64,000 nucleotides of DNA, from assembly GCF_002101315.1 (NCBI RefSeq), contig NZ_CP020777.1, positions 62,001 to 126,000 of the forward strand, given 5' to 3'. Source of the stretch: Candidatus Pelagibacter sp. RS39. Lineage in GTDB: Bacteria > Pseudomonadota > Alphaproteobacteria > Pelagibacterales > Pelagibacteraceae. The translations under genes were made by a program, and so were the position numbers. Under the pieces are notes generated by a model. That model was given only the letters and a program-made list of their open reading frames with translations, searched no databases and was not told the DNA's origin. Of this stretch, positions 3,438 through 60,868 are shown piece by piece. How positions within the stretch are numbered: the first letter of the stretch is position 1; each line of letters starts with the position of its first letter.

Positions 3438-4018
3438 TTATAATTATCTAAATATTTTTTAATTTTTTCAATTGGAAGTCCCATTATTGTATTTTCATTT
3501 CCATCGATACTTGAGAATAAATCTCTTCCCTCACCCTCTATTTGATAAACATTATAAGCATATAAAGCCTCATCAGAAATTTTGGCTAGGTAATTTTTAA
3601 GCTCATCATCTTTCATTTTTTTCATTGTCAAAGTTGCCCTATCTGTATGATTCCATACCATAGATCCATTTTTAGAGATACATACTGAACTAATTAAATA
3701 ATGTTTTTTGCCATTAAGTTTTCTTAAAATTTCTAAAGCTTCTTCTCTATTGTCCGGTTTTGATATTAGTTCTCCGTTTAAATCGATGACACTATCAGCG
3801 CCTAAAACTAAATTATCACTATATTTCCCGCTTATCTTGTTGGCTTTTAATTCAGCTAAATTTTTGGATATTATCTCTGGTGAAGCTTCTTCTTTTAATA
3901 AACTCGACTTTACAACATCTTCATCAACATTTGATGGTCTAACTTCATTCAAAATATTGTATTCATCAAGAATTTTCTTTCTAACTTTGCTTTGAGAAGC
4001 AAGAATAATTTTAAGCAT
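3434..4018 (-). CDS. maf: Maf-family nucleotide pyrophosphatase
   Basis: Maf/YceF-type proteins hydrolyse non-canonical or modified nucleoside triphosphates and have been linked to septum control. This 194-residue protein starts with LASQSKVRKKIL and has VLGADSVIDLNGELISKP, the two best-conserved Maf motifs. It overlaps ppsR by eight bases and aroE by four. The exact subclass (dTTP/UTP versus m7GTP) cannot be settled by eye. No missing catalytic region was seen. Confidence 0.88.
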   Translation of the reverse strand: MLKIILASQSKVRKKILDEYNILNEVRPSNVDEDVVKSSLLKEEASPEIISKNLAELKANKISGKYSDNLVLGADSVIDLNGELISKPDNREEALEILRKLNGKKHYLISSVCISKNGSMVWNHTDRATLTMKKMKDDELKNYLAKISDEALYAYNVYQIEGEGRDLFSSIDGNENTIMGLPIEKIKKYLDNYK

Positions 4019-4835
4019 TTTCTTTAAAAATTTCGTATATTTTAATTACTGAAGCTGCCGTTTCTTCTACAGATTTTCTAGTTACATCAATTGATGGCCA
4101 TTTATATTTTTTAAAGGTATTTTTTGCCATGTCCACTTCCTTTTTTATCTGTTCTAAATCAGTGTAAAGTTTATTGGTATTTTCCTTAAGAGAGTTCATT
4201 CTGTTTTTTCTTATTTCTACTAACCTTTCTGGTTCGGTGTTTAATCCCACAACACATGAAGTTTTTGGATTTTTTTTTAAAATCTCTGGAATAGAATCTT
4301 CTGTTATTAAGGGAATGTTGGATGTTTTTAGGCCTTTATTTGCTAAAAAAATAGCTGTAGGAGTTTTGCTTGTTCTACTAACTCCTAATAAGATTACATC
4401 AGATTGTTTTATTTCTTTTACAAGATTACCGTCATCATGATTCATTGTAAATTGAATCGCCTCAATTCTTTTATAGTAGTCTTCATCTAGAGCATATTGA
4501 CCACTTGGTTGGTGTGAGGCTTTTTGGTTTAAAAGTTTAGAAAAACTTAATATTAGATCACCCAACACTCCAAAGCATGGGATTTTTTTCATATCACTAT
4601 TTTTAGCAAGATATTTTGCTAAGTTGCTATCAACGATCGAATATAAAATTATTGAGTTTTTTTCTTGCTCTGCGTTTTCTAAAATTTTTAAAATCTGGTT
4701 TTCTGTTCTAGTAAAGGAATAAGTGTGTACTTTGTAATTTATATTTTTAAATTGTGCTTTAATAGCTATAAATATACGATCTAGAGTTTCACCAGTTGCA
4801 TCTGATATTAAATAAATTTGGTATAAATTACTCAT
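4011..4835 (-). CDS. ppsR: Pyruvate,phosphate dikinase (or PEP synthase) regulatory protein
   Basis: This DUF299 family enzyme is a bifunctional ADP-dependent kinase and Pi-dependent phosphorylase that switches PPDK or PEP synthase off and on. The 274-residue protein opens with IYLISDATGETLDRI, diagnostic of the family. The P-loop-like GVSRTSKTPTAIFLANKG lies near residue 150. It is the first gene of the leftward operon running to dnaQ. Its ATG faces hemE across the putative origin, matching the Rickettsia and Caulobacter layout, where this family flanks hemE. Whether the target is PPDK or PpsA is not visible here. Confidence 0.9.
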   Translation of the reverse strand: MSNLYQIYLISDATGETLDRIFIAIKAQFKNINYKVHTYSFTRTENQILKILENAEQEKNSIILYSIVDSNLAKYLAKNSDMKKIPCFGVLGDLILSFSKLLNQKASHQPSGQYALDEDYYKRIEAIQFTMNHDDGNLVKEIKQSDVILLGVSRTSKTPTAIFLANKGLKTSNIPLITEDSIPEILKKNPKTSCVVGLNTEPERLVEIRKNRMNSLKENTNKLYTDLEQIKKEVDMAKNTFKKYKWPSIDVTRKSVEETAASVIKIYEIFKENA

Positions 4836-4843
4836 GTATAAAA

Positions 4844-4852
4844 TGTGTATAA
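4844..4852 (-). promoter_or_regulatory. DnaA box, consensus match
   Basis: On the minus strand the sequence reads TTATACACA, which fits TTATNCACA exactly. It lies nine bases upstream of the ppsR start codon. In such AT-rich DNA a single match is weak evidence alone; the location in the ppsR-hemE gap raises its value. Confidence 0.5.
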
Positions 4853-4949
4853 ATTTGTATTATATTTATCATATTGGACATTTTTCATAATTTTAAATTT
4901 ACGTTGTAAAACAATACTTTTATTAACAATATCAAACACGTTAAAATCT

Positions 4950-4964
4950 TTAATGATCATTTAA
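4950..4964. promoter_or_regulatory. CtrA-type box TTAA-N7-TTAA
   Basis: TTAA at 4950-4953 and TTAA at 4961-4964 are separated by exactly seven bases (TGATCAT). This is the full CtrA recognition pattern that represses origin firing in Caulobacter. The centre is itself a palindrome (AATGATCATT). Chance occurrence in AT-rich DNA is not negligible. Confidence 0.4.
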
Positions 4965-5034
4965 TGTATTTAGTTAATAAGCTTCAATTTTACGTATATA
5001 TTTAATAAAATTTAAGTCTTAAATGTTAATAAAT

Positions 5035-5043
5035 TGTTTATAA
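5035..5043 (-). promoter_or_regulatory. DnaA-box-like sequence, one mismatch
   Basis: The minus strand reads TTATAAACA, one base away from TTATNCACA. It lies in the hemE-proximal half of the putative origin. It is listed because, with the boxes at 4844 and 5068, it makes a spaced set. Confidence 0.3.
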
Positions 5044-5067
5044 AATGTTCACTAAATTTAATCACCA

Positions 5068-5076
5068 ATATTCACA
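5068..5076 (+). promoter_or_regulatory. DnaA-box-like sequence, one mismatch
   Basis: The plus strand reads ATATTCACA, differing from TTATNCACA only at the first base. It sits 41 bases upstream of the hemE start codon. It is the closest box to hemE in the putative origin. Confidence 0.35.
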
Positions 5077-5117
5077 AGTTATACTAACATTACTACCAAT
5101 TATATTTAATTATTAAT

Positions 5118-6119
5118 ATGTCTCCAATCGAGGAAGTAATAGTAAATAAAAAAAGTAATATTAATCCGATTTGGATTATGAGACAAGCAGGAAGGTATTT
5201 GCCCGAATTTAGAGAAATAAGAAAACAAAATCCAGATTTTATCAAACTTTGTCTTAATGAAAAATTATCTAGTGAGATTACTTTGCAACCCTTGAAAAGA
5301 TTTAATTTAGATGCAGCAATAATTTTCTCTGATATTTTAATGTTACCATACGGTTTAAATCAAAATGTTGAATTTAAAAAAAATATAGGTCCATTGCTTG
5401 GCAATCTTGACTTAGAAAAAATATCTGATGTTAAAGAAGCTGACTTTGTTGAAAAACTTTCACCTATTTATAAATTAATCGAATTAGTTAGTAATTCTCA
5501 ACACACTAAAAATAAAACTACCATAGGTTTTATAGGAGCACCTTGGACCTTATTGGTTTACATGTTAAATAAAAAATCACCAAAATTAAATTTGAATGAT
5601 AATTTTTATGAAGATAAGTATTTAATTGATAAAGTTTTAAAAATTTTAGACAAATTTTTAAAAATACATATTAAAAATCAAATTGATAACGGGGCTCAAA
5701 TAATTCAGATTTTTGATAGTTGGGCTGGCCTATTAAAAGAAAAAGATTTAACTTATTATATATATAATCCTACATTAAGCTTGGTTAACTATGTTAAATC
5801 GTTAAACGTGCCTGTTATCTGTTTTCCGAGAGGAATAAAAAATTATAAAGATTATTGTGAAATTGTTAAACCAGATACAATTTGTATTGACTATGAGGTC
5901 GATCCAATAAAAATTAATAAAGAAATTAAAATTCCTGTGCAAGGCGGAATGGATCCAAAAGTTTTACTTTCTGACAAAGAAAATTTAAAAAAAGAGGCAA
6001 TAAAATATTTAGATATATTTAAAGATCACCCATATATATTTAATTTGGGACATGGTATTTTGCCAGAAACAGATCCAAATATGATGGATTATTTAGTGAA
6101 AACTGTGAAAGATTATTAA
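5118..6119 (+). CDS. hemE: Uroporphyrinogen decarboxylase
   Basis: HemE removes four carboxyl groups from uroporphyrinogen III to give coproporphyrinogen III in heme synthesis. The N-terminal PIWIMRQAGRYLPEFREIR carries the conserved Arg residues that bind the substrate carboxylates. FSDILMLPYGL and the C-terminal NLGHGILPETDPNMM are also family signatures. The length of 333 residues is normal. Its stop codon overlaps the hemH ATG (TAATG), so hemE-hemH-hemJ form a coupled heme operon running away from the putative origin. Confidence 0.95.
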   Translation: MSPIEEVIVNKKSNINPIWIMRQAGRYLPEFREIRKQNPDFIKLCLNEKLSSEITLQPLKRFNLDAAIIFSDILMLPYGLNQNVEFKKNIGPLLGNLDLEKISDVKEADFVEKLSPIYKLIELVSNSQHTKNKTTIGFIGAPWTLLVYMLNKKSPKLNLNDNFYEDKYLIDKVLKILDKFLKIHIKNQIDNGAQIIQIFDSWAGLLKEKDLTYYIYNPTLSLVNYVKSLNVPVICFPRGIKNYKDYCEIVKPDTICIDYEVDPIKINKEIKIPVQGGMDPKVLLSDKENLKKEAIKYLDIFKDHPYIFNLGHGILPETDPNMMDYLVKTVKDY

Positions 6120-8889: not shown

Positions 8890-9732
8890 TTAAAGATAGC
8901 CAAGTTCTTTTAATTCACTATTAAGCTCAGTTTCTAACTCTTTTTGAATGTTTTTTGGCAGTGTATTTTGCCAAACATTGCTGGGTCCTTTGTTAAAGAA
9001 TTTTACTTTTTCACTCTTTCCTTTAACGAAAACGTTCTCTGTAAAATCACCATTATCTTCAATTTTTTTTAATGCTTCAAAAGAGGTTGATTTTATAATA
9101 TTTTCTTTTTTGGTATCAGACACCTCAAAAGTGATGAAATTTTTAAGAAATGCAATAATTTTATCAATCTCTTGATGTATATTTTTTACTAAGTCCTCGT
9201 ATTTAATTATTAACAAATTTTCATTATCGTTCGTCCAAAACCTATAATGTTCCTTCCAAGAGCCAATATATGTAATTACGTTTCCGCCTCTTAACTCAAT
9301 TTCTTTATCAGGAGAAAGAATTTTCGATGTGAGAAGAAATTTTTTGGATTCTTCAATAGATTTACTGAAGTGATTTGATATGGAGTCAATAAGATTTCTA
9401 GGATCTCTAACAATGTAAATTGTAGCTCGTGTACATCCTTTATTAGTAAAAGGATAATTGTCAACTTTACAGTTTAAATGATGTGTTTTGAAAAATTTAA
9501 TTTTAGCGTCTAGATTTATTCTCTCTTGAGATGTAATCCAATGCTTTTTGATTTCGTGAATATTATTATAATCTTGTGTGAAATACTCTAAAAACCGTCT
9601 TTGTGGATATTGTTCAATTTTTTTTATACTAGGAAAATCAAATATTCCATCTTTTGTATAGACTAAAGAAGAAATTATAGACCTGACCCATGTATTTCCA
9701 CTCTTCGGATATGATGCTACCCAAATAATCAT
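8890..9732 (-). CDS. Sulfotransferase-family protein (copy 1)
   Basis: The 280-residue protein starts with MIIWVASYPKSGNTWVRS, the 5'-phosphosulfate loop of PAPS-dependent sulfotransferases. TIYIVRDPRNLIDSISNHF near residue 115 is the 3'-phosphate-binding motif. The C-terminus has KFFNKGPSNVWQNTLPKN, which matches the KG...W ending of the family. It is a clear paralog of the gene at 25774-26616. The acceptor is unknown; a carbohydrate, lipid or protein are all possible. It is inserted on the opposite strand between rho and mnmE, two bases after the rho stop. Confidence 0.8.
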   Translation of the reverse strand: MIIWVASYPKSGNTWVRSIISSLVYTKDGIFDFPSIKKIEQYPQRRFLEYFTQDYNNIHEIKKHWITSQERINLDAKIKFFKTHHLNCKVDNYPFTNKGCTRATIYIVRDPRNLIDSISNHFSKSIEESKKFLLTSKILSPDKEIELRGGNVITYIGSWKEHYRFWTNDNENLLIIKYEDLVKNIHQEIDKIIAFLKNFITFEVSDTKKENIIKSTSFEALKKIEDNGDFTENVFVKGKSEKVKFFNKGPSNVWQNTLPKNIQKELETELNSELKELGYL

Positions 9733-11219: not shown

Positions 11220-13091
11220 ATGAAAAAAGATTTCCAATTCGATGTAGTTGTTATCGGCGGTGGCCATGCTGGTTGTGAAGCTGCAACGGCCTCAGCAAGA
11301 CTTGGTGTAAATACCGCTTTGTTTACACATAACAAAAATACAATCGGAGAAATGTCATGCAATCCAGCTATAGGTGGTTTAGGTAAAGGTCACCTAGTTA
11401 GAGAAATTGATGCTTTAGATGGTGTTATGGGAGAGGTAGCAGACAAGTCTGGAATACAATTTAGATTATTAAATAGAAGTAGAGGACCTGCAGTTCGAGG
11501 ACCCCGAACTCAATCTGACAGATCATTATATCGTAAATATATGCAAGAAAAACTTGTAAACTACTGTAATTTAAGCATTTTTTCAGATCCTGTAATAAAG
11601 TTTATTTTTAAAAATAACCAAATAAGTGGGTTTATAACACTTAAAGGTAATAAAGTGAGTTGTAACAAGTTAATCTTAACAACAGGCACTTTTTTGAATG
11701 GTTTGATACATATAGGTGATGAAAGAACACCTGCAGGACGATTTAATGAAAAACCGAGCACAGGTCTAAGCGAACAATTAGAAAAGTATAATTTCAAAAT
11801 TGGAAGATTAAAAACAGGCACACCTCCTAGATTAGATTCTAGAACAATTAATTTTGAAAATTTGGAAAAACAGTTTGCCGATGAAGATCCATATTTTTTT
11901 TCTTTTCTGACCAAAAAAAATTTAAACAAACAAGTTTCTTGTTCTATGACTTATACAAACGAAAAGGTTCATAAAATAATAGAAAAGAATTTATCTAAAA
12001 GTGCAATGTATTCCGGAAGCATACAAGGAGTTGGTCCTAGATATTGTCCCTCTATTGAAGACAAAATAGTAAAATTCGCTGATAAGACAAGACATCAAAT
12101 ATTTCTTGAGCCTGAGGGTCTAAATGATCATACAATCTACCCTAATGGCATATCTACATCTCTACCTGAGGTTGTACAATATGAAATACTCAACAATATC
12201 AGTGGTTTAGAGAATGTAAAAGTAATTAGACCAGGATATGCTATAGAATATGATTATATTGATCCAAGAGAGCTTTTTTTAACATTGGAGACAAAAAAAA
12301 TAAAAAATCTTTATCTCGCTGGTCAAATAAATGGAACTACAGGTTATGAGGAAGCAGCTGCTCAAGGTCTTATAGCAGGAATTAATGCTGCTCTATCTTT
12401 AAAGAATATGGAACCTTTTATTTTAGATAGATCAGACGCATACATTGGCGTTATGATAGATGACTTGGTTACCAAAGGTGTTGCAGAGCCTTATAGAATG
12501 TTTACATCTCGAGCAGAGTATAGACTAAGTCTTAGATCAGATAATGCAGACTTAAGGCTTACTCATAAAGGAATTAAAATCGGTTTAATAGCAGAAAATA
12601 GAAAACAACTATTTGAGGACAAATTTAATAAATTAAGTAAAATATCTCTTCAAATGTCTAATTTAAATATTTCACCCTCTAAGGCAGATAAATTTGGAAT
12701 AAAAATAGCTAAAGACGGTGTTTTTAGATCAGCAGAGGAAATTCTTACCCAAAAAAGTGTTGATATGATAAAAATAAGGGATATTTGGCCTGAAATCGCT
12801 GATTATGGGAATGAAATTGATGAGCAGATTGAGATTAACTCTCATTACAGAGGATATTTAAAGAAACAAAAAGCCGATATTTTAGCTTTTAAACGAGATG
12901 AGAATTTAGCAATACCAGATAATATTAATTATGATCAATTTTCAGGCCTTTCTAACGAGGTAAAAGCTAAATTCAAGGAAATAAGGCCTAAAACCATGGG
13001 ACAGGCCTTAAGAATCGATGGAATAACTCCTGCAGCTGTATATATTTTGTTGTCACACGTCAAAAGAAAGTCTATTAAGCATATAGCTTAA
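11220..13091 (+). CDS. mnmG: tRNA uridine-5-carboxymethylaminomethyl modification enzyme MnmG
   Basis: MnmG is the FAD-dependent partner of MnmE. The FAD-binding [17 protein letters not shown] lies near residues 13-29. [20 protein letters not shown] is the family signature with its conserved Cys. The later [19 protein letters not shown] is the second nucleotide-binding region. The length of 623 residues is normal. The stop overlaps the rsmG start (TAATG). It begins the mnmG-rsmG-parA-parB coupled operon, a classic origin-proximal arrangement in bacteria. Confidence 0.96.
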
Positions 13092-13738
13092 TGGACAACA
13101 TAATTTTAAATTCTTATTCCAAGATCTCCAATTTGAATGTTTCACGTGAAACTTGTAATGAGCTCGAGAACTTAATCTCGATGATACAGGAAAAAAATCA
13201 AGAAATTAACATTATAAGCAAAAAAACCGATGAAAAAGAGGCTATAAGAGAGCGACATATAATCGATTCAGCACAAATTATTGATTTTGTTGATTTAAAT
13301 AGCAATACAACCTCAGATTTAGGATCAGGAGGAGGAATGCCTGGATTAATTGTAGCTATAGTGATGAAAAAAATAAAAAATAACATGAAAGTAAACCTCT
13401 ATGAAAAAAGTTACCACAAATGTGTTTTCCTAAGAGAAGTTTCAAAAAAATTAAATTTAAATACAAAAATAATTCAGAAAGATATTTTTTCACTTAAAAA
13501 TATTGAAACAGGAACAATTATGTCCAGGGCATTTAAGCCAATGCCTGTCATTTTAAACTTGGTTAATGAAAATTTTAAAAAATATAAAAATATTATTTTT
13601 TTTATGGGAAGTAGTGGGAGAAAAATTCTTAATGAAACTCTTCAAGAGTGGGATTTAGAATACGAAGAAAAAAAAAGTTTAACGAGCAACGACTCGTTTA
13701 TATTGAACATCAAAAAAATTAAAAAAAAAATTTCATGA
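13091..13738 (+). CDS. rsmG: 16S rRNA m7G527 methyltransferase RsmG
   Basis: RsmG methylates N7 of G527 in 16S rRNA using SAM. The SAM-binding motif DLGSGGGMPGLIVAI lies near residues 75-89. SRAFKPM is the later conserved segment. The length of 215 residues fits. The first 20 codons hold a near-perfect parS site at 13138-13153, translated as NVSRET, so this stretch serves two functions. The stop overlaps the parA start by four bases (ATGA). Confidence 0.94.
   Translation: MDNIILNSYSKISNLNVSRETCNELENLISMIQEKNQEINIISKKTDEKEAIRERHIIDSAQIIDFVDLNSNTTSDLGSGGGMPGLIVAIVMKKIKNNMKVNLYEKSYHKCVFLREVSKKLNLNTKIIQKDIFSLKNIETGTIMSRAFKPMPVILNLVNENFKKYKNIIFFMGSSGRKILNETLQEWDLEYEEKKSLTSNDSFILNIKKIKKKIS
13138..13153. 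promoter_or_regulatory. parS: parS centromere site inside rsmG
   Basis: The sequence TGTTTCACGTGAAACT matches the universal ParB site TGTTNCACGTGAAACA at 15 of 16 positions. The inner 14 bases (13139-13152) are a perfect palindrome. It lies about 600 bases before parA and about 1.4 kb before parB. ParB binding in or near gidB/rsmG is known from other bacteria. It supports origin-proximal chromosome segregation. Confidence 0.88.
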
Positions 13739-14529
13739 AAATAATTTCAATTATAAATCAAAAGGGTGGGGTTGGAAAAACAACAACTGTAATTAATTTA
13801 GCGTCCGCTTTATCTCAACTTGGTAAAAAAATTTTAGTAATTGATTTAGACCCTCAAGGGAATGCTACTACAGGATTAGGATTATCAAACACCTCTCAAT
13901 CTGATCAAACAATTTATGGAATTCTCAATGGGACAATGACGATTTCGAACGTTATTAAAAAAACAAACTTTCAAAATCTTGATTTAATATCATCGAATGT
14001 AGATCTGTCCGGATTGGAGGTTGAGACTGCTGGTGATAGTGATAGAGCCTTTATACTTAAGGCTAAATTAACCGCGTATTTAAATGATTCTAGAGGATTA
14101 TATGATTATATCCTCATAGATTGTCCTCCTTCTTTGAGTCTTCTAACAGTAATGGCTTTAGTATCATCTAACTCACTGCTTGTGCCATTACAAACAGAAT
14201 TTTTTGCTTTAGAAGGACTTACACAGCTTATGAAGACTATTGAGAGAATTAAAGTTAACTTGAATCCCCAATTGGAGATCCAAGGCATACTTTTAACAAT
14301 GTATGATCGAAGAAATAAACTTTCATCACAGGTTGAACAAGAAGCGAGAGATTATTTTAAAGACAAAGTTTACCAAACTGTAATACCTCGAAATGTAAGA
14401 TTATCTGAAGCACCATCGCACGGAATCCCAGTATTAATATATGACAAGAATTGCCCAGGAAGTAAGTCATATTATAATTTTACAGACGAGTTCATGGCAC
14501 AAGAAAATAAAGTTGGGAGTGCAGCATAA
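13735..14529 (+). CDS. parA: Chromosome partitioning ATPase ParA
   Basis: ParA is the deviant Walker A ATPase that moves ParB-parS complexes apart. NQKGGVGKTTTVINLA at residues 8-23 is the deviant Walker A with its signature Lys. LIDLDPQGNATTGLG is the Walker A' segment and LIDCPPSLSLLTVMA holds Walker B. The length of 264 residues is typical of chromosomal ParA/Soj. The stop overlaps the parB ATG (TAATG). With parB and the parS in rsmG it forms a complete segregation locus. Confidence 0.95.
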   Translation: MKIISIINQKGGVGKTTTVINLASALSQLGKKILVIDLDPQGNATTGLGLSNTSQSDQTIYGILNGTMTISNVIKKTNFQNLDLISSNVDLSGLEVETAGDSDRAFILKAKLTAYLNDSRGLYDYILIDCPPSLSLLTVMALVSSNSLLVPLQTEFFALEGLTQLMKTIERIKVNLNPQLEIQGILLTMYDRRNKLSSQVEQEARDYFKDKVYQTVIPRNVRLSEAPSHGIPVLIYDKNCPGSKSYYNFTDEFMAQENKVGSAA

Positions 14530-15371
14530 TGAATAAAATAAAAAAAGGACTTGGTAGAGGATTATCTTCCTTAATCGGTGAAACTAAGGTTGAGAATAAA
14601 ACAAATAATCTAAGTTTAGCCGAGATAGTTCCGAATAAATATCAACCAAGAAAAAATTTTGATGAAGAAAACTTAAATGATTTAGTTAATTCAATAAAAG
14701 AACGGGGTGTTATTCAGCCAATTATAGTTAGAAAATCTAATACGAACAATTCCAAATATGAGATTATAGCTGGAGAAAGAAGATGGTTAGCAGCTCAGAA
14801 AGCAGGACTACATGATATTCCGGTCGTTGTTACAGATGCAGACGATCTTAAATCTTTAGAATTTGCAATTGTAGAAAACGTACAAAGACATGATTTAAAT
14901 CCTTTAGAAGAGGCTCAGGGTTATAAAAGATTAATAGATGAATTTGCGTATGATCAGGATAAGGTATCCAAATTTATCGGCAAAAGTAGAAGTTATATTT
15001 CTAACTCATTAAGGTTACTTAATTTACCAAAAGAGGTTCTTGATTTCGTAGAGCAAAAGAAAATTACCGCTGGTCATGCAAAGATATTAGTAGGGCTGGA
15101 TAACGCTATTTTTCTAGCAAATAAATTTATTGAAAAAAAATTATCTGTAAGACAAGCAGAAAATTTAGTTAAAATATTTAGAAAAACTAAAAGAAATACC
15201 TCCAGCAAAGTTGATTCAAATATCCGAGATTTAGAAAACTCTATATCCGAAAAAATTGGGCTAAGTGTTTCCATTAAAAATAATAAAAACAATAAAGGCA
15301 CAATATCATTTTATTACAAAGAGCTTGATCAATTAAACAAGATTATTGATATAATTAAATCTGGATATTAG
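14529..15371 (+). CDS. parB: Chromosome partitioning protein ParB
   Basis: ParB is the CTP-dependent clamp that loads at parS and spreads. The N-terminal LGRGLSSLIGE at residues 8-18 is the ParA-interacting segment. The CTP-binding region includes NKYQPRKNFDEENL and GERRWLAAQKAG, the latter matching the GERRxRA box with W in place of one residue. The helix-turn-helix lies around KVSKFIGKSRSYISNSLRLL. At 280 residues it is normal. The 3' end overlaps the convergent holA by 17 bases. Confidence 0.94.
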   Translation: MNKIKKGLGRGLSSLIGETKVENKTNNLSLAEIVPNKYQPRKNFDEENLNDLVNSIKERGVIQPIIVRKSNTNNSKYEIIAGERRWLAAQKAGLHDIPVVVTDADDLKSLEFAIVENVQRHDLNPLEEAQGYKRLIDEFAYDQDKVSKFIGKSRSYISNSLRLLNLPKEVLDFVEQKKITAGHAKILVGLDNAIFLANKFIEKKLSVRQAENLVKIFRKTKRNTSSKVDSNIRDLENSISEKIGLSVSIKNNKNNKGTISFYYKELDQLNKIIDIIKSGY

Positions 15372-19998: not shown

Positions 19999-20055
19999 AA
20001 AATCTGATGTTTAAAATTAGATTATGATTATATTACTCTTAAAGCCCTAAAATAC

Positions 20056-20076
20056 ATGCAAAAAGTGATGCAAAAA
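20056..20076. repeat. Pair of ATGCAAAAA direct repeats upstream of porin
   Basis: Two identical 9-mers (20056-20064 and 20068-20076) start 12 bases apart in the 188-base gap between the DUF3576 gene and the porin. The rest of the gap is AT-rich with several possible -10 elements (TATAAT at two places) and no small gene that I can support. The repeats could be an operator for the porin. Function is unproven. Confidence 0.35.
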
Positions 20077-20186
20077 TACAACACTGATAAAAATTTATTG
20101 TTAAAATTACACAAATATATAATTAAATGGCTGTTTTTTGCTAAATATACCCTGTTTATAATTAATTATAAAAAAGGAGTATATTT

Positions 20187-22858: not shown

Positions 22859-23419
22859 ATGAACTCTCGAATTTTAATAATATATGAATATCAAATTTTA
22901 TACCAAATATTAAATGAAATCAGCGAAGGCTTAAATTTTGAGATTACTCAATTTAACAGTAAGGATTTAAAAGATCTAAAGTATGATCCCAAAAATAACT
23001 ATTTGATTATTTCAAAAAAAAAAATTGAAGGAATTAAGAATAGTTTAATCTTGGAAAATATACCAATTAAATTCGAAAAGCTTATTGAAATGATTAATAT
23101 AAATTTTTTAAAAAATAAATTTTCAGATCAATCATATATAAATATTGGTGAATATAATCTAGATTTAAACTCTAGAAAAATTTCTCATGGAAATAAAAGT
23201 TTAAATTTAACAGAAAGAGAAACAAATTTAATAATCTTTATCAAAGACAAAAAAAATGTAACGATTAAAGAATTGCAAAAAATGGTCTGGGATTATTCAC
23301 CAGATCTAGAAACACATACTGTTGAAACACATATTTACAGATTAAGGAAAAAAATGAAAGAAACTTTTGGAAATGAAAATTTTATCTTAAATACTAGTAA
23401 TGGTTATTCGATAGATTAG
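22859..23419 (+). CDS. OmpR-type winged-helix regulator with degenerate receiver domain
   Basis: Residues ~93-186 form a clear Trans_reg_C winged helix: YNLDLNSRKISHGNKSLNLT, then LTERETNLIIF and ETHTVETHIYRLRKKMKETFG, ending ILNTSNGYSI. The N-terminal ~85 residues have receiver-like strands. They lack the N-terminal acidic pair and the phosphoacceptor Asp: the expected site reads NNYLIISKKK. It is therefore probably not phosphorylated in the usual way. No histidine kinase is adjacent. It is divergent from the YkuD gene and convergent with the kinase gene downstream. Targets are unknown. Confidence 0.8.
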   Translation: MNSRILIIYEYQILYQILNEISEGLNFEITQFNSKDLKDLKYDPKNNYLIISKKKIEGIKNSLILENIPIKFEKLIEMININFLKNKFSDQSYINIGEYNLDLNSRKISHGNKSLNLTERETNLIIFIKDKKNVTIKELQKMVWDYSPDLETHTVETHIYRLRKKMKETFGNENFILNTSNGYSID

Positions 23420-23422
23420 TTA

Positions 23423-30512: not shown

Positions 30513-31115
30513 ATGTTAAAAAAAAAAATATCAAAAATTTTAATTGGCACAAATAACAAAGGAAAACTTAAAGAAATTAAGGGTTTACTGCCAAAATCAA
30601 TTAAAATTTTTTCTACATCAGATTTTAAGCTTAAAAGCCCCGCTGAAAATGGAAAAACATTTAAAGAAAACTCAATAATTAAATCTAAGTATTTCTCAAA
30701 AAAATCTAATTTAGTTTGTATTGCTGATGACTCTGGTCTTGAAATAGATTGCTTGAATAAAAAACCTGGAATTTTTTCAGCCAGATGGGCGGGATCTAAA
30801 GGAGATTTTAGCAAAGCAATTAAAAGAGTGTACAGAGAATTAAGTAAGAAAGATAAAGATTGGAAAGCTAAAAGGATCAAAGCAAGATTTGTTTGCGCAT
30901 TGTCGATTTGTTATCTAGACAAAACAATTGCAAGTGTAGTTGGAAAAATTGATGGTTATATTTCAAATAAAATTAGAGGCAAAAATGGTTTTGGATATGA
31001 TCCAATTTTTATTCCCAAAAAAAAGAAACAAACTTTTGGTGAAATGAAGTTATCTAGTAAATATAAAATTGACCATAGATCAATTGCATTTAAAAAAATT
31101 AAAAAATTTCTTTAA
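30513..31115 (+). CDS. rdgB: XTP/dITP diphosphatase (RdgB/HAM1 family)
   Basis: RdgB removes inosine and xanthosine triphosphates from the nucleotide pool. GTNNKGKLKEIKGLLP at residues 11-26 is the N-terminal nucleotide motif. ADDSGLEIDCLNKKPGIFSA is the catalytic block. GFGYDPIFIP and the C-terminal SSKYKIDHRSIAF match the family. The length of 200 residues is normal. It is divergent from grpE. The 3' end overlaps the convergent LppC-like gene by 17 bases. Confidence 0.92.
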   Translation: MLKKKISKILIGTNNKGKLKEIKGLLPKSIKIFSTSDFKLKSPAENGKTFKENSIIKSKYFSKKSNLVCIADDSGLEIDCLNKKPGIFSARWAGSKGDFSKAIKRVYRELSKKDKDWKAKRIKARFVCALSICYLDKTIASVVGKIDGYISNKIRGKNGFGYDPIFIPKKKKQTFGEMKLSSKYKIDHRSIAFKKIKKFL

Positions 31116-60537: not shown

Positions 60538-60568
60538 TTCATAATATTAACTAAAAAAAAGCAATTAG

Positions 60569-60612
60569 TAATCATTCGCAAAAAAAAATCACGATAATAA
60601 TAATCATTCGCA
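60569..60612. promoter_or_regulatory. Paired Fur-box-like direct repeats
   Basis: TAATCATTCGCA occurs at 60569-60580 and 60601-60612, 32 bases apart, or about three helical turns. The second lies in GATAATAATAATCATTCGC (60593-60611), which matches the E. coli Fur box GATAATGATAATCATTATC at 16 of 19 positions. The repeats lie 45 to 88 bases upstream of the 59-residue Cys-rich gene. The Fur-family protein at 41682 is a possible binder. Confidence 0.5.
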
Positions 60613-60656
60613 TGGATAATTATTGAAAAAATTTTATTTATGATTAATTTTTAATT

Positions 60657-60836
60657 ATGCAAATAGAAAATTATAATTGTAAAAAATGTGGACTGACAAT
60701 TTCTTCAACTTGTTCTAAGTGTGATAAAATTGTTGATGTTGAAGTCCTTGATGATGGTTGTATTGTCCAGAAAACAAAATGTTTAGATTGTGCAAATGCT
60801 CCGGTAATCAAGGATGTTTGTGAGCAACAAAAATAG
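60657..60836 (+). CDS. Cys-rich small protein (59 aa), putative metal-binding
   Basis: A 59-residue frame starts at 60657. It contains eight Cys in three CxxC pairs (CKKC at 8-11, CSKC at 19-22, CLDC at 42-45) plus Cys35 and Cys55. This is typical of zinc-ribbon or small metal-binding proteins. I recognise no family. It lacks a signal peptide, so it should be cytoplasmic. Fur-box-like repeats precede it. The gene ends 32 bases before the convergent SH3 gene. Metal binding is inferred from the Cys pattern. Confidence 0.65.
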   Translation: MQIENYNCKKCGLTISSTCSKCDKIVDVEVLDDGCIVQKTKCLDCANAPVIKDVCEQQK

Positions 60837-60868
60837 TTTAGGATAAAATTAAATAAGGGTGATAAAAA

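Follow-up and report, generated by a model that had tools for sequence, protein, structure and literature searches.

Genes and DnaA-box-like sites at the ppsR-hemE junction

The locus considered here is an intergenic gap of 282 bp at positions 4836-5117 of the window, by which we mean the whole stretch of 64,000 nucleotides that was analysed (62,001-126,000 of C1, the single contig of a genome of 1,199,990 bases); in genome coordinates the gap spans C1:66,836-67,117. It is flanked by two divergent genes that point away from it, as the first-pass annotation had described. On the left lies ppsR (4011-4835, minus strand; COG1806/PF03618), identified from its translation and by the Pfam and NCBIfam models, the latter being PRK05339 (PEP synthase regulator), which is matched over its cut-off. 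On the right lies hemE (5118-6119, plus strand), identified from its translation, by the HemE search and by the NCBIfam hemE model, again over the cut-off. The ppsR family (PF03618) is the same as COG1806. In PMC1914354 the domain of COG1806 is given as DUF299. According to names read from the translations, the minus-strand genes leading up to the gap are dnaQ, coaE, aroE, maf and ppsR, while the order beyond it is hemE, hemH, a hemJ-like gene, rho, a sulfotransferase-like gene on the minus strand, mnmE, mnmG, rsmG, parA and parB. Among these named neighbours, the NCBIfam scan covered ppsR, hemE, maf, rsmG, parA, parB and the sulfotransferase-like gene; rsmG falls just under its cut-off, and the sulfotransferase-like gene (8890-9732, minus strand), located between rho and mnmE, is without an NCBIfam match at 1e-20. 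By HemE, the closest named relatives of this genome, among the best 80 of 189 loci, are Pelagibacteraceae single-cell genomes (up to 98% identity), and the SAR11 label given earlier to this DNA therefore stands. One further locus, titled Flavobacteriaceae (L179), encodes a Pelagibacteraceae-type hemE (87%) and is probably a mis-binned contig.

The gap is 83.3% AT, compared to 70.4% for the window as a whole. It had been called both the most AT-rich and the longest gap of the window; the former holds by a hair's margin (0.837 for the AT-richest 282-bp stretch, against 0.833 at 31088), while the latter does not, since among the internal gaps between ORFs of at least 60 aa it ranks second to 60538-60868, which measures 331 bp. 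No RNA gene is predicted anywhere in the window by Rfam or ARAGORN, and an RNA gene inside the gap was rejected on this basis. The parS-parAB locus that the first-pass annotation had placed about 8 kb away was also examined. A parS-like site, TGTTTCACGTGAAACT, with one mismatch to the consensus, is found at 13138-13153 (plus strand) within the rsmG-like gene (13091-13738), and it is followed on the plus strand by a parA-like gene (13735-14529), whose matches to ParA-type families all remain under cut-off, and by parB (14529-15371), which matches TIGR00180 (parB_part) over the cut-off. The site and the starts of the two genes (13735 and 14529) lie 8-9.4 kb from the gap. In shuffled sequences, matches to the parS consensus with as many as three mismatches number 0.28 per window.

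Three DnaA-box-like 9-mers reported in the first-pass annotation are present in the gap, namely an exact TTATNCACA at 4844-4852 on the minus strand, reading TTATACACA, and one-mismatch boxes at 5035-5043 (TTATAAACA, minus strand) and 5068-5076 (ATATTCACA, plus strand). To these we add two one-mismatch boxes, both reading TTATTAACA, at 4920-4928 (plus strand) and 5024-5032 (minus strand). The boxes at 5024 and 5035 form a tandem pair with an 11-bp step, and 5046-5054 (minus strand) is a possible third position of this array, box-like by eye in some relatives and poor in the genome studied here. The left box, at 4844-4852, is box-like by eye in many of the aligned relatives. A lone exact TTATNCACA is a weak signal, as the window contains three of them. 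The pattern TTATNMACA, which was picked after viewing the alignment of relatives, occurs four times exactly and seven times at up to one mismatch in the gap, where the stricter TTATNCACA occurs once. Over 639,990 bases (53% of the genome) the mean is 0.055 exact TTATNMACA per 282 bp, and the gap is the sole 282-bp window with four. A box matrix built from relatives, with the genome studied here and its nearest relative left out, likewise ranks the gap first among the 282-bp windows of the same 639,990 bases (sum 67.4, compared to 58.5 for the runner-up). The runner-up, at C1:630,753, is an artefact caused by a coding repeat (DEHGHK). A DEHGHK repeat run in a zinc-binding-protein-like gene (L023:440-1489) mimics a cluster of DnaA boxes at the DNA level.

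Location of dnaA and strand skew

The first-pass annotation had proposed that the gap is an origin unlinked to dnaA. The dnaA gene is indeed not adjacent, as it starts at C1:129,454, about 62 kb from the gap and outside the window. Origins apart from dnaA are described for Alphaproteobacteria in the excerpts of PMC1914354, hence the distance is unsurprising. HemE and DnaA are separated by about 61-70 kb wherever both are found on one contig, which is the case in eight of ten genomes from both families of the order (five of seven from the same genus and three of three from the sister family; in the two others the genes are on different contigs). The side on which dnaA lies relative to the direction of hemE is opposite in the sister family compared to the genus.

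It is conceivable, and in our opinion very unlikely, that replication starts instead at dnaA, in the gap between rpsT and dnaA, with the hemE gap left as a relic or serving DnaA titration. The rpsT-like, dnaA and dnaN-like genes are clustered together, and the alignments of SAR11 genomes in the available part of PMC12421898 were begun at DnaA. In its raw form, the sampled cumulative GC skew is weak; it bottoms out at 90-150 kb, and a two-arm fit to the raw skew slightly favours 120-150 kb (5999) over 60 kb (5695). The raw skew points 25-85 kb off the gap. However, the rpsT-dnaA gap (C1:129,182-129,453; 272 bp, 80.5% AT) contains two TTATNMACA with a single mismatch each and none that is exact, and the counts of exact matches in the equivalent gap of six relatives are 0, 0, 0, 0, 1 and 0. 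We have also rejected the raw GC skew as a decider, since it is too noisy and is dominated by gene strand (coefficient 0.117, compared to 0.026 for the replication arms).

The skew was corrected by jointly fitting gene strand and replication arm to the third-position GC skew (GC3) of 615 ORFs on a 5-kb grid. The optimum of the corrected GC3 skew falls at C1:65,000, with dnaA (130 kb) 2.6 log units worse and with a broad interval, in which about 35-120 kb stays within about 2 log units and 150 kb stands at 2.1. The effect of the arm on GC3 has t = 3.5 when the chromosome is split at the gap and the point opposite, and t = 2.8 when it is split at dnaA. In a second closed genome, of which 30% was sampled and none over the hemE junction, the junction falls short of the best position by 0.4 log units and dnaA by 2.8. 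Thus, in each of these two genomes the corrected skew points to the hemE gap in preference to dnaA, weakly and without deciding the matter. The terminus fitted from the corrected GC3 is loose, at 400-635 kb, and not opposite the gap. The AT3 skew was rejected as a locator because its optimum is away from the gap (at 0 or 50 kb, to which 65 kb is inferior by 2.3 units). The switch in GC skew that the first-pass annotation had named as possible support is thus placed best near this gap by the corrected GC3 skew, within a broad interval, while the raw and AT3 skews point elsewhere. Skew is described as insufficient for several species of Alphaproteobacteria in the excerpts of PMC1914354, and Pelagibacter is listed among the chromosomes with arms seemingly unequal by skew in those of PMC2099444.

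Conservation of the junction within SAR11 and in the sister family

Among 37 genomes of the same genus (including the one studied here), 31 contain a match to the Pfam ppsR model, and HemE is matched in 30 and not matched in seven. In all 30 loci ppsR is located divergently upstream of hemE, across a gap of 261-284 bp. Of 189 HemE loci in the genome_contigs collection the best 80 were considered; ppsR is found upstream in 79 of them, across gaps of 269-284 bp, and in the odd one out the sequence ends before ppsR. The two collections overlap, with at least four of the 79 loci identical to members of the same-genus 30, and so not all loci are independent; removal of four gaps identical to earlier ones left 75 further gaps, 74 of them distinct. 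Across the SAR11 genomes compared, in which the first-pass annotation had suggested looking for conserved boxes, the flanking genes and the length of the gap are thus conserved. The 30 same-genus gaps contain 88 exact TTATNMACA, compared to a mean of 5.7 in dinucleotide shuffles (sd 2.4; maximum of 200 shuffles, 12), and 24 copies of TTATNCACA, compared to 1.0, with the reservation that the gaps share ancestry and that these contrasts are not counts of independent events. No gap among the 30 is without an exact TTATNMACA and four of them have just one, while the 75 further gaps have from two to six apiece (262 in total), and 56 of the 75 possess the right, hemE-side box according to the strict pattern.

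In the alignment of 105 gaps, with a mean column identity of 0.763, the best conserved 9-mers are TTATTAACA at 4920 (0.945) and ATAAAATGT at 5040 (0.941), which overlaps the box at 5035. These are followed by TTATTCACA at 5068 (0.926), which is the consensus form of the hemE-proximal box, TTTAATTAT at 5105 (0.893) and TGTTAATAA at 5024 (0.890), the first member of the tandem pair. Boxes on the same strand (at up to one mismatch) are separated by 11 bp in 15 cases, compared to 0.6 in shuffles, and by 22 bp in 14 cases, compared to 0.5; these steps correspond to one and two turns of the helix.

In the 24 genomes compared from another family of the order, the sister family, the ppsR model has no match. 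HemE is matched in 21 of them, and in all 21 the left neighbour is maf and the gap before hemE measures 265-275 bp. These data bear on the possibility, to which we give hardly any credence, that the gap is merely a double promoter for ppsR and hemE, AT-rich like the rest of the genome and kept since both genes need it. A divergent gene pair does need promoters, the window is 70% AT, and boxes are scarce in the sister family, where exact TTATNMACA are missing from 14 of the 21 gaps (10 in total, compared to 2.1 in shuffles, sd 1.4). However, the length of the gap has survived the absence of ppsR, with maf as the neighbour, an observation that speaks against a simple promoter region, and neither the enrichment of boxes nor their 11/22-bp phasing within the genus is a promoter feature.

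DnaA boxes also mark titration sites, and three exact TTATNMACA occur together in a second place in the window, before a porin-like gene (19999-20186), but a DnaA-bound regulatory or titration cluster of the datA type, devoid of origin activity, is scarcely credible at a junction that is the proven origin in Caulobacter (excerpts of PMC1914354) and in a gap that combines the AT-richest stretch of the window with the best switch of the corrected GC3 skew. The gap at 19999-20186 falls within the 282-bp stretch that has the densest cluster outside the putative origin in the bases read, and the porin-like gene behind it is perhaps regulated by DnaA.

Taken together, the conserved junction and gap length, the enrichment of boxes and the optimum of the corrected GC3 skew support the origin assignment made in the first-pass annotation. 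As far as skew and conservation allow a test, neither of the refuting outcomes named in that annotation was seen. Judging from these sequence comparisons, we propose that this SAR11 bacterium very probably starts the replication of its chromosome in the ppsR-hemE gap, and that its oriC shares this locus with the origins of Caulobacter and Rickettsia.

Putative unwinding element, regulators and comparison with known origins

If the gap is the origin, the 41 bp between the right box and hemE (5077-5117, plus strand) are the candidate for the unwinding element, as suggested by the alignment of relatives and by the analysis of NTA runs. They are AT-rich and begin with the triplet-like repeats ATACTAACATTACTA. 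In many SAR11 gaps, the hemE-side box is followed by about 4 bases and then by triplets of the ATA-CTA-ATA kind. In 28 same-genus gaps (two loci without the right box by pattern, L049 and L065, were left out of the analyses of this element), NTA runs have a mean of 2.93, compared to 2.02 (sd 0.16), and the lag-3 score is 0.456, compared to 0.391 (sd 0.019), in a region that was in both cases chosen after looking. At least three NTA are found near the right box in 33 of the 56 further gaps that have this box. In the sister family there is no excess of NTA runs (1.76 vs 1.85), and the lag-3 score is 0.481 vs 0.393 (sd 0.021). Among the 21 gaps of that family, hemE-side triplets of the form CTACTACTACTA occur in two (L091 and L129) and CTACTACTA in one (L142), both resembling the expected DnaA-trios, and most of the other gaps exhibit other triplet-like runs. 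A DnaA-trio unwinding element adjoining hemE is at best plausible.

The following order of events can be envisaged. DnaA-ATP would bind the boxes of the gap, and the pair at 5024/5035 would seed a DnaA filament, which the box at 5068 would steer towards hemE, into the AT-rich 41 bp. Opening of the duplex would follow there, then loading of DnaB, after which two forks would depart along the reading directions of ppsR and hemE. ParB bound to the parS-like site 8 kb away may then assist the separation of the newly made origins.

CtrA is probably not involved in this origin, because it was not found in the genome: the best score against NF045991, a model that bears the name of the Rhodobacter-type CtrA and is passed by one of 14 control genomes, is 126.9 of the 350 bits required. 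The genome encodes four winged-helix regulators, one of which is over the PhoB cut-off, while the rest pass none among the best 25 matches shown for each. Pelagibacter is stated to be without a ctrA ortholog in the excerpts of PMC2877005. A short regulator at about 22860-23420 (L099:1165-1725) has NCBIfam matches at 1e-10 that span its C-terminal winged-helix part only, with no receiver domain. The CtrA motif TTAA-N7-TTAA occurs once in the gap and 21 times in the 30 same-genus gaps, compared to 8.7 in shuffles (sd 3.0). We have nevertheless rejected CtrA sites as a regulatory layer, since CtrA was not found and nine of the 21 motifs overlap DnaA boxes; the excess probably arises because the 11-bp tandems of boxes create the motif. 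The IHF consensus WATCAANNNNTTR is absent from the gap and occurs three times in the 30 gaps, compared to 2.4 in shuffles, a scan that neither proves nor disproves binding; three genes of the IHF/HU family are present in the genome. A CcrM homolog is reported for SAR11 in the excerpts of PMC3973325, and GANTC (CcrM) sites show no enrichment, with two in the 30 gaps vs 4.5 in shuffles.

Few cells in the sea are as abundant as those of SAR11, whose growth is estimated by means of origin-to-terminus coverage. Such work would gain an anchor from an origin at a fixed coordinate, some 62 kb away from dnaA, and this origin would be one of the Caulobacter type that works without CtrA. In the literature searched, which left most subscription papers aside, we found no description of the sequence of a SAR11 origin, and DoriC may hold a prediction. 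In a legend of PMC4033161, oriC is said to have been identified manually, and in the excerpts of PMC9589681 the terminus was set from coverage minima.

It is tempting to go further and to regard the SAR11 origin as a pared-down, CtrA-free form of the ancestral alphaproteobacterial origin: a cassette of a fixed length of about 280 bp, situated about 61-70 kb from dnaA, with a shifted box code (TTATTAACA in place of TTATCCACA), pairs of boxes in helical phase and a DnaA-trio element on the hemE side, which the ppsR-less sister family would have kept in length while its trio part was sharpened and its boxes drifted. This scenario is tentative, and we would sooner doubt it than assert it in its entirety.

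Comparison with the characterized systems places the gap in a familiar context. In the excerpts of PMC1914354, the proven origin of Caulobacter is located between hemE and COG1806, and so is the predicted origin of Rickettsia, which agrees with what the first-pass annotation had stated about the hemE junction. The origin of Caulobacter crescentus (Cori) resembles the gap described here in the flanking pair of genes, in the presence of DnaA boxes and in an AT content above that of the genome. Cori differs in its length of 404 bp and in its sites for CtrA (five) and IHF (one), according to the excerpts of PMC1914354, whereas the SAR11 gap measures 282 bp and lacks the IHF consensus, and no protein of the genome passes the cut-off of the CtrA model. 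Another difference from Cori concerns the box code, as among 80 boxes of the SAR11 relatives picked by TTATNMACA 30 read TTATTAACA and one reads TTATCCACA. The predicted origin of Rickettsia prowazekii is similar in its flanks and its AT content (82.6%, compared to 83.3% here) and differs in length (384 bp, compared to 282 bp), according to the same excerpts; CtrA and IHF sites are attributed to it in the title of a cited paper. With respect to the basal unwinding system, composed of DnaA boxes and DnaA-trios (3'-GAT-5') in the excerpts of PMC8287927, many SAR11 gaps exhibit the same succession of a box, a spacer of about 4 bp and NTA repeats, although the gaps of the genus satisfy the published loose rule (at least three NTN within 16 bp of the box) about as often as shuffles do (19 of 28, compared to 65%). 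With its hemE and COG1806 flanks, several predicted DnaA boxes and an excess of AT, the gap shares these features with the alphaproteobacterial origins at the hemE junction, and it would be a new and well-supported member of an origin type already known.
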